Source of the DNA: a virus | Virus record (IMG/VR): IMGVR_UViG_3300021338_000004 | Coordinates: 1 to 64,000 of that record | Length of the DNA: 64,000 nucleotides | Direction: 5' to 3' (one strand) | Shown: one piece after another, positions 50,630-55,455 of the stretch | How positions within the stretch are numbered: position 1 is the first letter of the stretch | Layout of the letters: every line of letters begins with the position of its first letter | The notes under the pieces: generated by a model | Told to the model about the DNA's origin: nothing | What the model saw: the letters and a program-made list of their open reading frames with translations, nothing else | Database searches by the model: none | Position numbers and translations under genes: made by a program

Positions 50630-50797
50630 GTTCCCCTGTATGAGCTATGTCAGGATGATAAGCAGGGGATGCCATTGCCGAATCAAAAATTAAATATTGT
50701 TACGACTCATGTTGCCGTTCGATAGATTGCCTTTTCCTACTTCACTATTTGGTCATTTGCCGCTGGGCCCTCCTGGCGGTATTTTTTTACCCACCTC

Positions 50798-50831
50798 AAT
50801 TCGTTATAAAACATATCTTTTATAACGAATT
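50798..50831. other. 34-bp dif/lox-like recombination site
   Basis: AATTCGTTATAAAA (50798-50811), 6-base spacer CATATC, TTTTATAACGAATT (50818-50831): perfect 14-base arms around a 6-base core. Arm and spacer sizes are those of tyrosine recombinase crossover sites (dif has a 6-base core). It lies 109 bases upstream of the recombinase gene start. A second, looser pair of GTTATAAAA half-sites (50884-50892 and 50909-50917) sits nearer the gene. Confidence 0.8.
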
Positions 50832-50883
50832 CAGCAAAATCAGCACTTTCAGGCCAAGCCACTAGACAATATTTTTTTATTTA

Positions 50884-50917
50884 GTTATAAAATATTTAAA
50901 TAATACGATTTTATAAC
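50884..50917. promoter_or_regulatory. Second GTTATAAAA half-site pair before the recombinase gene
   Basis: GTTATAAAA and TTTTATAAC are separated by 16 bases and share the half-site of the 34-bp site. The stretch is AT-rich, suits an accessory binding site or the recombinase promoter, and would allow autoregulation. Confidence 0.6.
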
Positions 50918-50939
50918 CAATAAGGGGTTTGGCGCTGAC

Positions 50940-51554
50940 ATGGCAGGAAAACAAGCAAAGATCCTCTCTAAGCAGCAGCAGCGACTCGCGTTAGCGTATT
51001 TAGATGGCACACGATGGCCTGAACGCAACCGGGTCATGTTTTTGCTCAGCGTGAAGGCGGGATTGCGATCGAAAGAGATCGCGGCATTGTCAATGTGGAA
51101 CGTTGCTGACTGGGAGTACCAGGTGCTCGATTTTATCGAAATCACCGACAAGGACTCCAAAGGAAAAAAAGGCGGCCGAAAAATTCCGCTGAACCAGCAG
51201 CTCAAAGAGGAGCTTCAGATACTGATCGATCAGGTCAGGACGCTTCCCAACGGGTCTGATCCAAGCATGCCGATTATCCGAAGCGAAAGAGCTGGCCGCA
51301 CAGAAAAAACTTCACCACAGGTAATAACCAACTGGTTTAAGCGTCTGTATGGGCCAGCAGGGTTAAATTTTGCCGGCTGCTCCTCGCATAGTGGCCGTCG
51401 TACGTTTGGCACCATGGCTGCTCGCAACATCTCAGCTGCAGGAGGCTCTTTAAAGGATGTGAAGTATTTAATGGGACACAGCAGCATACAGACAACACAA
51501 ACCTACATTGACGAAACCGAAGAAGCGAAACGAAACGTCGTTAATATGATTTAA
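50940..51554 (+). CDS. Compact tyrosine recombinase (multimer resolvase)
   Basis: 204 residues, essentially the catalytic domain only. Catalytic set: Arg43 (GLRSKEI), a Lys in the KGKKGGRK turn (75-81), His150 and Arg153 (HSGRRTFG), His180 (LMGHSS) and Tyr189 (TTQTYID). It lacks the usual N-terminal core-binding domain (full-length XerC/Cre are 300 or more), like some compact resolvases of plasmids and phage-plasmids. Adjacent 34-bp inverted-repeat sites make resolution of plasmid multimers the likely role, with chromosomal integration less likely. Confidence 0.88.
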   Translation: MAGKQAKILSKQQQRLALAYLDGTRWPERNRVMFLLSVKAGLRSKEIAALSMWNVADWEYQVLDFIEITDKDSKGKKGGRKIPLNQQLKEELQILIDQVRTLPNGSDPSMPIIRSERAGRTEKTSPQVITNWFKRLYGPAGLNFAGCSSHSGRRTFGTMAARNISAAGGSLKDVKYLMGHSSIQTTQTYIDETEEAKRNVVNMI

Positions 51555-52379: not shown

Positions 52380-54122
52380 CTACGCCAAAGCATGACGATA
52401 CATATCATCAAGCCGTTTCACTTCCATTAGAGCAATCTGCGCCCGCACATGGTCACCACCATCCAAGCATTTGGCAGCCCAATCCTGTAGGTTTTGACGT
52501 ACCTCTGGATAATCCTCTAGTGTGCACTCGACGATCTCACTATCTGCGATCGCCTGCAGATCTCCAGGCGGCTCTGCTTCCATTGGCTCATCTGACAAGC
52601 CAAGCATGGTAAGCGCGTCATCCAAGTGGCGTTCTGCTTCTTCATTATCGGCATCAGAGCCACACGGTATGTAATTAGCCAGGAACGCAAAGGCGTATGT
52701 ATCGAAGATATCGGGCGATGCAATGCCCTGCGATCGCATCCGTTGCTTACTCATCATGAGCCATTGCCCACGGTCACTGAAGCCGTATGGAAGCTGTGTG
52801 AACTGAGTAATAGTTTTTGATCGCAGCGTGTCGTCTTTGGGATCCTGGTAGATAGACATACGCCCTGAGTCCAATGCGAAGCGGATTGCGACACAGGCCA
52901 TATCTTTTTTCTTGGGGAAGCGCCTTAGCATCGCCCGGGAATGAGGAGGAACCCCCCAGTGAATTCGCTGCACATTAAGTCCTGCGCGCTCACACTCTTG
53001 GGCCGTCGTCAGACCTAGTCCATCTGAGTCAATTGCGACAGTAACATTCGGGTATTCCTGCGAAGCAGCAATGATGCGGCGCGCAAAATCGACCGGGTTA
53101 CTACCTTTCGGTTGCACTTCTACTTTGACAGGCTCAACGTGGCGGTCATTAAACCCCGTACCCGATACTTTAAAAACGCTCATAACGGAGCTGTCACGCT
53201 CTTCCCCACTCGCCACATCGGCAGTTATGACCCACCCCCACTCTTCTTTGTGCCGCACAGAGATCTTAAAACCTGCATCAACCACGTTACGGCTTAACAG
53301 CATTCCGTCCAGGCTGTCAGGACAGACTCCCAGCACGCGGATCTGATATTCCGGGCTATCCCTTCCACCATATTCAAACCGCTTATCACGAATGAACTTC
53401 ATGGTTACAAACGGAGATTCCTCGGAATTCAGCGTTATTGCCGTGTATTTGCCTTTGGGGTTCGCCTCTGTTTTCGCCAATCGCAGCTGACTATCTGCGA
53501 AGTGCCCATTTGGGCGTGTAAACTGGCTCAACAGAAGGATCTTGTTATTATCTTCCGTAAGTGCGCCACTCAGCGTACTAAAAACCTTATCATCCGCACC
53601 AGACGCCTCGTCAACGACCACAAGATAATCCGCACGGTGGTTACCCGCCAAACCGTCCTCATTCCCCTTGGCACAGGTTTTTCCGAAGATCTGCCAGACG
53701 CCTTTAAAGCCACGAGCATAGAACGACTTGGCAGTAACCAGAAAGTATTGCTCAAGCCAGCGGTGTCTTTTGCAGATATCGGCCCACACGCGCTTGATGT
53801 ACGCAAAAACAACGTTAATTACCTGGTCGATACTGTTCGCAGTCAGCATAACCAGGCTGATCGGATGGCATATTAGGAAATGCAGGCACAGCGCTGCTGT
53901 TAGATGAGACTTTCCCGTACCATGCCCGGAAGCAACCGATACTGCGGCTCCTATTGGCTTCAGCGCAAAGATAACATCTGCCTGTTGCCAGCTTGGTTCC
54001 ATACCGCACACATCAACAACAAAGGCGTACGGATCGTTCATATAGGATGCCGCAAAGTCTAAATATCGCGGATCCTCCAGTATGGTGCGTTTACGTTTCT
54101 TGGCCATCATTTTCCTCGGCAT
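52380..54122 (-). CDS. Terminase large subunit
   Basis: 580 residues. Walker A GHGTGKSH at 66-73, Walker B DYLVVVDEAS at 165-174, coupling motif in LLLSQFTRP, and nuclease-domain acidic residue in VITADVASGEERDSS (about 295-305). It packages DNA into the prohead and cuts it. A later ATG at 54107 gives a slightly shorter form. The start overlaps the terminase small subunit gene by 32 bases. Confidence 0.9.
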   Translation of the reverse strand: MPRKMMAKKRKRTILEDPRYLDFAASYMNDPYAFVVDVCGMEPSWQQADVIFALKPIGAAVSVASGHGTGKSHLTAALCLHFLICHPISLVMLTANSIDQVINVVFAYIKRVWADICKRHRWLEQYFLVTAKSFYARGFKGVWQIFGKTCAKGNEDGLAGNHRADYLVVVDEASGADDKVFSTLSGALTEDNNKILLLSQFTRPNGHFADSQLRLAKTEANPKGKYTAITLNSEESPFVTMKFIRDKRFEYGGRDSPEYQIRVLGVCPDSLDGMLLSRNVVDAGFKISVRHKEEWGWVITADVASGEERDSSVMSVFKVSGTGFNDRHVEPVKVEVQPKGSNPVDFARRIIAASQEYPNVTVAIDSDGLGLTTAQECERAGLNVQRIHWGVPPHSRAMLRRFPKKKDMACVAIRFALDSGRMSIYQDPKDDTLRSKTITQFTQLPYGFSDRGQWLMMSKQRMRSQGIASPDIFDTYAFAFLANYIPCGSDADNEEAERHLDDALTMLGLSDEPMEAEPPGDLQAIADSEIVECTLEDYPEVRQNLQDWAAKCLDGGDHVRAQIALMEVKRLDDMYRHALA

Positions 54123-55455
54123 CCAGCGCCTCTAGCTCTTTGCGACGCTTCGCGAGGGCCTCTTCCTTTTTCGCAGCGTACTGCTGCTCCAATTCTTGAG
54201 CGCGCGCCTTAACCTGCTCTGGCGTAACACCACCATCGCCCATGTCGTCCTCGTTCTCGTCCTGGAATTCGGCCACAACCTCTTTTTCCAGCACAGGCGG
54301 TAGTTGCATAACCCCGGCCTTCATCAATCTGTAGGCGGCCTCTAGGGCTGTCAGCCCCTTATCCTCTTTCTCACTCAGCACTTCCTGCAGCAATTCGGCT
54401 TGATTGAGATAGGTCAGCGTATTCGCATGAATCAGGCGGGCATGTTTTAGCTTCAGGTTGGATAGGTTGGTGGTGAACCGGTGAACCAGCTGATTAAAGT
54501 CCGGCATCTGCTTAACGAATTGGATCCCGTCGTTGCCAGTGCCAACGCCCACCTCTATGCGCGCATCGTCATACATTTCCACTGGCACACTGCCGCCGTC
54601 GGCATGCTGTTTGAGCTGGTCGTACTCCATTTGACGCTGCAGAGTACGCATAAGCTGGCGACTAACTACCCGTATTTCACCTTCCAGGCTATGGGTATCT
54701 ACATCGTCTAACGCCTGACGTTCATCTTCGCTCTCAAACTGGGAATAAATGCCGTGTTTAGATGCATTCTGATTGCGTGCCGGTGCGCCTTCTGATTTTC
54801 CGCCGTGCAACTTGCAGCGACCGGTGCCGAAATGATGGGTTCCCCAGCCGGCGGGCATCTGGCAATAGCCACCACTGCGCGTAGTCGCATTGCAACAGCC
54901 GTCTCTCGGTCCTGGCGGTTCACCGTCATCACCCCCGTCACCACTCTCTTTCTTGCCTTCCAAGCCAAAGACGTTCATCAGGTTGCGACCGAAGGATGAA
55001 GGGCCGTCAGACGCATCTTCCGAGCTGCGATTTTTCGCATTTCCAGCGGCACCGTTGCGGGCACCGTCATGGGGTTGTTTCACAGATTCGATGGGAATGA
55101 CGTTGTTTGAAGTGCGCGCGCGACCCTCTATATCACGCTCTTCACTCTTATCATTTCCCTTATTATTCAGAGGCTTATCTTCTTTACTACCAATCGCCTT
55201 ACTGCGATTTTTCGCATTCCCTGCACTGCGACTTTTCGCACGCGCATTTTTCGCACTTTTCGCAGAAGGCTTACTCGCATTTTCCAGCCAGGCTTTGGCC
55301 GCTTTTCGGGTGATATATCGCTTTGCGGAACCATAAGAAACACCGGCCTGATTGCACCAGTCTTCAGCAGAAATCTGTGTTGCGTCATATGCCTTGGCAT
55401 ACGCTTCCAACAGACCTTTCCATTTGGCGGGATAATTGTCGTATGGGGCAGACAT
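54091..55455 (-). CDS. Terminase small subunit-like DNA-recognition protein
   Basis: 454 residues, long for a small subunit. N-terminal HTH (about 20-55: AKAYDATQISAEDWCNQAGV, SYGSAKRYITRKA), then a disordered basic stretch. Then a Cys/His cluster CNATTRSGGYC, HHFGTGRCKLHGG and NASKHGIYS, a signature of phage small terminases. C-terminal helical/coiled region. It recognises the packaging site. Overlaps the large subunit gene by 32 bases. Confidence 0.75.
   Translation of the reverse strand: MSAPYDNYPAKWKGLLEAYAKAYDATQISAEDWCNQAGVSYGSAKRYITRKAAKAWLENASKPSAKSAKNARAKSRSAGNAKNRSKAIGSKEDKPLNNKGNDKSEERDIEGRARTSNNVIPIESVKQPHDGARNGAAGNAKNRSSEDASDGPSSFGRNLMNVFGLEGKKESGDGGDDGEPPGPRDGCCNATTRSGGYCQMPAGWGTHHFGTGRCKLHGGKSEGAPARNQNASKHGIYSQFESEDERQALDDVDTHSLEGEIRVVSRQLMRTLQRQMEYDQLKQHADGGSVPVEMYDDARIEVGVGTGNDGIQFVKQMPDFNQLVHRFTTNLSNLKLKHARLIHANTLTYLNQAELLQEVLSEKEDKGLTALEAAYRLMKAGVMQLPPVLEKEVVAEFQDENEDDMGDGGVTPEQVKARAQELEQQYAAKKEEALAKRRKELEALDAEENDGQET

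Follow-up and report, generated by a model that had tools for sequence, protein, structure and literature searches.

The window, as we call the whole 64,000-nt stretch of viral DNA analysed here, contains a gene for a tyrosine recombinase of only 204 residues that is closely preceded by inverted repeats, and the question it raises is what so small an enzyme acts upon and what it does for the element that carries it. Reading function from sequence, we consider it likely that gene and repeats make up a self-contained multimer-resolution module of a circular P1-like phage-plasmid, equipped with an accessory site that the recombinase itself would bind. Its probable task would be to take apart copies of the element that have become joined.

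The putative core recombination site lies at positions 50798 to 50831 (centre 50814.5) and reads AATTCGTTATAAAA / CATATC / TTTTATAACGAATT, that is, two 14-bp half-sites inverted around a 6-bp spacer. As the preliminary description had stated, this 14-6-14 inverted repeat is perfect; it is also the only one of its kind in the whole record, and 20 order-1 Markov shuffles contained none. The exact half-site string AATTCGTTATAAAA occurs twice in the record, once on each strand. A second pair of half-sites nearer the gene, likewise described before, is indeed present at 50880 to 50921 (centre 50900.5; TTTAGTTATA ... TATAACCAAT). Its arms are inverted copies of the core half-site, identical to it at 11 of 12 positions, and matches to the 12-mer at 11 or more positions occur at four places in the 77,175-bp record, which are precisely the core and accessory half-sites. 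The distance from GTTATA to TATAAC, however, is 22 nt in the accessory pair versus 12 nt in the core, an excess of one helical turn. Because its arms stand this one turn too far apart, the pair is not a crossover site and could not be upheld as a second site of the lox or dif type. What had been overlooked is that it is a conserved element with fixed helical phasing, its centre lying 86 bp from that of the core. This distance is set by the length of the linker (50832 to 50879; like the two site parts, annotated without strand) and is 76, 86 or 96–98 bp in relatives. Both repeats fall within ~145 nt 5′ of the recombinase start codon, with the accessory pair, a probable operator, adjoining the start. 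Immediately outside the core we note a terminator-like hairpin (50758 to 50790, plus strand), which is a consensus match only.

The recombinase gene itself spans 50940 to 51554 on the plus strand. Its product matches Pfam Phage_integrase (1.4e-16) and phrog_216 (1.8e-35), is labelled an integrase by the PHROG families, and carries the residues R43, K74, H150, R153, H180 and Y189. Matches to XerD, XerA and Cre begin at the catalytic domains of these proteins, and an AlphaFold (AF2) model (pLDDT 94, pTM 0.90) comprises the catalytic fold only, which aligns with the corresponding portions of XerA, Cre and the Tn1549 integrase. Since profile and structure matches both start at the Xer/Cre catalytic domain, the core-binding domain is absent, which agrees with the initial account of a 204-residue protein retaining its catalytic residues. 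The best NCBIfam Xer match scored 47.6 bits against a cut-off of 335, so the Xer family cut-off was not reached. The compact form, by contrast, is not the oddity it had been taken for: none of 159 relatives lacks R43, R153, H180 or Y189 and a single one lacks H150, and because Arg I lies near residue 43 in most, the missing core-binding domain is a family trait. A compact, catalytic-only recombinase, gp143 of phage phiCbK, was reported in 2012 by Gill et al., who proposed that it resolves multimers, possibly with an accessory protein (PMC3556154). By its sequence, the window protein is a member of this phiCbK-type family; what appears to be new is thus not the compact enzyme, already known from gp143, but its site.

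The replicon that carries the module can be recognised from its ends and its genes. The first 30 bases of the record are repeated at its end, and owing to this overlap we take it to be a closed circle of ~77.1 kb. It encodes head, tail and anti-restriction proteins of P1 type (PmgB, PmgC, PmgG, a DarB-like protein and the sheath), a PacB-like terminase large subunit (52380 to 54122, minus strand) that shares 42.7% identity with P1 PacB and ~58% with PacB of P1-like plasmids of Vibrio and Alteromonas, and, in the position of P1 pacA, a terminase small subunit-like gene (54091 to 55455, minus strand). The TrfA replication initiator is 52% identical to TrfA on Vibrio plasmids; a search for TrfA in four other phage records gave no match, but as it gave none in the control genomes either, this negative carries no weight. 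Together, the P1-type proteins, the PacB-type terminase and TrfA mark the record as a P1-like phage-plasmid; a terminase search of the viral contigs returned no close phage relatives. From the 3′ end of the large-terminase gene (52380) to the end of the core (50831) the distance is 1.55 kb, compared to 1.58 kb between the end of pacB (93206) and the start of lox (94784) in P1. Judged by this arrangement, recombinase and site occupy the place of Cre/lox in P1. The phage-plasmid also has a PAPS-reductase-family gene (L003:6183-7379; record ~64.2–65.4 kb) and an exonuclease VIII and RecT recombination pair (L003:13886-15950; record ~71.9–73.9 kb).

P1-like phage-plasmids of Vibrio, Photobacterium and Alteromonas possess a different compact tyrosine recombinase downstream of PacB, 196 to 213 aa in length and ~24% identical to that of the window (L171:9551-10192, L172:9637-10227, L173:6517-7107). 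In p0908 and pAMBAS45, the compact recombinase is preceded by a palindrome, AATTGCTAAAA-GCACG-TTTTAGCAATA; pAMBAS45 additionally shows a half-site in reverse orientation close to the recombinase start. It seems that the place beside pac has received a new recombinase more than once.

Homologues of the window protein occur in 62 phage records, mostly of lytic Caulobacter and Brevundimonas phages, in 395 PLSDB plasmid records, in at least 517 confirmed segments of contigs from bacterial genomes and at 63 IMG/VR loci. A search without preset geometry, admitting two inverted pairs of one 10-mer with gaps of 0 to 40 and centres up to 160 bp apart, was run over the 300 nt preceding each of 153 genes. 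It yielded 40 matches, mostly with a core gap of 12, a second gap of 21 to 23 and a centre distance of 76, 86 or 96, as against 4 irregular matches in shuffled sequences. With the geometry fixed, 46 of 152 homologous upstream regions passed, corresponding to 29 non-redundant loci, compared to 9/152 when these regions were read on the opposite strand and 3/760 among other segments of the same loci. Related pairs of gene and site, which the preliminary description had proposed to look for in other phage-plasmids, are present on many bacterial plasmids and genome contigs. Although distances from 60 to 112 were permitted, the centres in passing loci were all at 76, 85.5–87.5 or 95.5–98; from B-DNA geometry, such ~10-bp steps (76/86/96) would keep both parts of the site on one side of the DNA helix. 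Inverted repeats anchored by ACT were also tallied in 98 further loci, where gap 12 is the commonest (12 loci, with no more than 3 at any other gap).

The half-site consensus is ~ACTSATTATAwAA, with strong variation between loci (ACTCCCGTTA, ACTCACCATA, ACTGATAATA). While loci differ, the four copies inside one locus drift together, as expected if a single protein recognises every copy. Conservation does not extend to the 6-bp spacer, which is GATATA, GATACA or GATAGA in near-identical Piscirickettsia loci whose arms are fixed. On balance, we lean towards a widespread system of plasmids and phage-plasmids in which a catalytic-only recombinase would build its own topological filter from a core and a phased, wider accessory pair (76, 86 or ~96 bp away), with neither a helper nor a core-binding domain. 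The two-part site was undetected in about two-thirds of the homologues, including the whole lytic phiCbK-like clade, for which no site was detected within 700 nt upstream of the gene; related loci scoring below the threshold suggest some under-detection. Several homologues reside on long contigs that may be chromosomal, a setting in which a role in multimer resolution is less obvious. A scan of all viral contigs with the consensus-core pattern gave one match, probably due to chance, in a 372-kb phage where no recombinase lies close by, and the exact half-site of the window had no match in all viral contigs. We found no description of the two-part site in the literature searched; subscription journals were largely outside this search, which leaves priority uncertain.

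Several further loci have repeats reminiscent of the core. On pABTJ2 (L158), a 111-kb plasmid of Acinetobacter baumannii, the gene of a distant compact recombinase is preceded by a repeat resembling the core (upstream of 2411; AAAAAATATAATAAAA-TGTATC-TTTTATTACATTTTTT, centre 98.5 nt upstream), and a third half-site lies close to the start codon. Among IMG/VR loci, the closest relative that the window protein retrieved, on an 82-kb contig, shows a gap-12 core-like repeat at L004:4532-4565 (ACTCAGGACA/ACTCAGTACA), ~450 nt upstream, with a 109-aa ORF before the recombinase and no accessory pair detected. Perfect gap-12 repeats (ACTGGCGATG, ACTGAGCGCA) precede the compact recombinases of two phage contigs of 112 and 91 kb (L100 and L110), again with the accessory pair undetected; the one in L100 has a high G+C content and may represent a terminator. 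L049, finally, combines a core that is an unusually long perfect palindrome with a second, partial recombinase gene (2170-2589; Phage_integrase, 140 aa) divergent from the compact one.

Close relatives in different backgrounds provide the borders of the module. In the majority of informative comparisons, homology stops 14 to 20 nt outside the core centre, the core half-length being 16 (27 nt in one comparison); the opposite border, for most of these pairs, lies just past the recombinase stop codon. Core, linker, accessory site and gene (~735 bp) hence form a conserved unit, which could reflect selection on a functional whole or exchange at the core. A second core near each gene, as in site-flanked cassettes, was not found. 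L027 and L039 have an insert of ~2 kb outside the core but no second core at its far end, and we make no claim of cassette exchange at the core.

Among the plasmid neighbours are ParA/ParB (L010) and ParB/RepB (L161). Toxin-antitoxin pairs lie directly outside the core in L007, L009, L010 and L011, all plasmids of Piscirickettsia salmonis, and in L019 (HigBA), one chlamydial MAG being among the records in which such genes adjoin the core. All of these neighbours serve maintenance. These pairs are of different kinds (YoeB/YefM, HicAB, PIN/AbrB, HigBA) and point away from the core, while the recombinase side is related. They resemble the toxin-antitoxin genes found beside res sites in Tn3 transposons (PMC7157771). 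There was no conserved partner gene: no family recurred in more than two members among 104 neighbours of two-site loci.

How might these parts work together? The 204-aa protein would bind both half-sites of the 34-bp core, likely as dimers, then cleave and exchange strands across the 6-bp spacer, converting replicon multimers to monomers. The accessory pair, 86 bp away on the same helical face, is predicted to be bound by the same protein, where it would most likely wrap or synapse the DNA and so act as a topological filter, such that productive synapsis would require two sites in direct repeat on a single supercoiled molecule. Since the pair sits just ahead of the start codon, binding there probably also represses the recombinase and limits its expression; no sigma-70 promoter match was found near the gene, and this predicted autoregulation is accordingly drawn from position. 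Given the proximity to pac and terminase, duplication of the site might further allow incoming, terminally redundant DNA to be circularised, as with Cre/lox in P1. Resolution, proposed from the outset as the task of a stand-alone system, is still the best reading, favoured by a single-copy site, a circular P1-like replicon, a lox-equivalent position and the recurrence of the module on plasmids; the resolution step itself is deduced from this setting. Speaking against it is the loss of homology between close relatives just where the core ends on its outer side, a pattern also expected of an attachment site.

That observation leads to the alternative of an integrase with its attP, by which the element would integrate in the host chromosome at a matching attB. 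The PHROG label points the same way, and near-identical modules in unrelated outer flanks, with homology mostly ending ~14–20 nt from the core centre, do have an att-like boundary. We nevertheless consider integration unlikely, as the record is a closed circle with a TrfA replication gene of its own. Moreover, an integrated element would be flanked by two att copies, whereas three whole host genomes (8.3, 2.7 and 4.0 Mb) hold one core copy each at up to 3 mismatches, and the ~2-kb inserts in L027 and L039 have no second core at their far ends. Chromosomal integration, which the preliminary description had named as evidence against resolution, was thus not seen in these genomes. Quite unlikely, too, is that the repeats serve solely as an operator, for the recombinase or another regulator, with recombination taking place elsewhere or not at all. 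They do lie within ~145 nt of the start codon, the second adjoining it, and comparable res and irs sites contain promoters and regulate expression (PMC7157771). Against this, the 13/14-6-13/14 architecture of the core is that of a tyrosine-recombinase crossover site, and the spacer varies between loci and even among near-identical Piscirickettsia copies while the arms are kept; operators need no such spacer.

We regard an inversion switch of the FimB/FimE type, flipping the segment between the repeats or another one, as very improbable. FimB/FimE-type invertases are also ~200 aa in length, and a related Acinetobacter protein matches NCBIfam DNA-invertase models. Those enzymes, however, use two equivalent inverted crossover sites, while here the second pair differs in gap from the first by one turn in every locus and the two consequently do not form an equivalent crossover pair; nor is there a second core in the record or, at up to 3 mismatches, in the three host genomes. 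The likeness of the layout to irs and rst of Tn3-family transposons, and the toxin-antitoxin genes at the core in Piscirickettsia plasmids and the chlamydial MAG, as in Tn3 elements, would fit a role in resolving cointegrates of a replicative transposon (Tn3/TnpI type) instead of replicon multimers. This we hold to be the most improbable reading of all, as no Tn3 transposase appeared among the annotated neighbours, among the best 25 Pfam families of the 104 neighbouring proteins or in the window neighbourhood examined.

If multimer resolution is the function, the module bears on a wider problem. Plasmid-borne tyrosine recombinases are numerous, and a survey in 2012 could not tell which of them resolve multimers (PMC3414803). 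The target site of the compact phiCbK-type enzymes was previously unknown; the phased site now gives one large branch of them a directly testable target, and its two-part form lets the module be recognised in genomes with no information beyond the sequence. The system also provides a 200-residue recombinase that would owe its selectivity to the site it carries, and it raises the question of how an enzyme without a DNA clamp forms a synapse.

Among known systems, the gp143-type proteins of phiCbK-like phages (phrog_216) are homologous to the window protein at 33–36% identity and likewise consist of a catalytic core of ~200 aa. These phages are lytic, with no target site reported and none detected upstream of their genes here; the window protein, unlike them, falls in the branch of plasmids, genomes and phage-plasmids with a two-part site. 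Cre/lox of P1 shares the P1-like phage-plasmid setting and a 34-bp palindromic site ~1.6 kb beyond a pacB-type gene. The catalytic fold of Cre matches that of the window protein, but sequence identity is ~18%, Cre has an N-terminal clamp that the window protein lacks, and lox is a 13-8-13 site with no accessory element, as opposed to a 14-6-14 core with a phased accessory pair. XerCD/dif and single-Xer systems have in common with the window the 6-bp spacer and an Xer-like catalytic domain. In contrast with XerCD/dif, the window system is element-encoded, with a single protein, no core-binding domain and an accessory site built of the same half-site.

Two transposon systems come nearer in layout. 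TnpS+TnpT/rst of the Tn4651 group also has two inverted-repeat pairs, with recombination at one of them (PMC7157771). It requires a helper protein and has divergent genes, whereas in the window all four half-sites share one motif and there is no conserved partner gene. TnpI of Tn4430 and Tn5401 is a full-length enzyme. Its site, irs, similarly combines a core inverted repeat with extra recombinase motifs upstream of the tyrosine resolvase gene (PMC7157771), accessory binding being what we predict here. The accessory motifs of irs are direct repeats (DR1, DR2), while those of the window are inverted, and TnpI/irs belongs to a Tn3 transposon, whereas no TnpA lies beside the window gene or is listed in the neighbourhood scans. 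Lacking a transposon and a helper, and having its accessory motifs inverted, the window system is a member of neither. As its accessory element is conserved and helically phased, TnpI/irs is a closer working model for it than Cre/lox or XerCD/dif.
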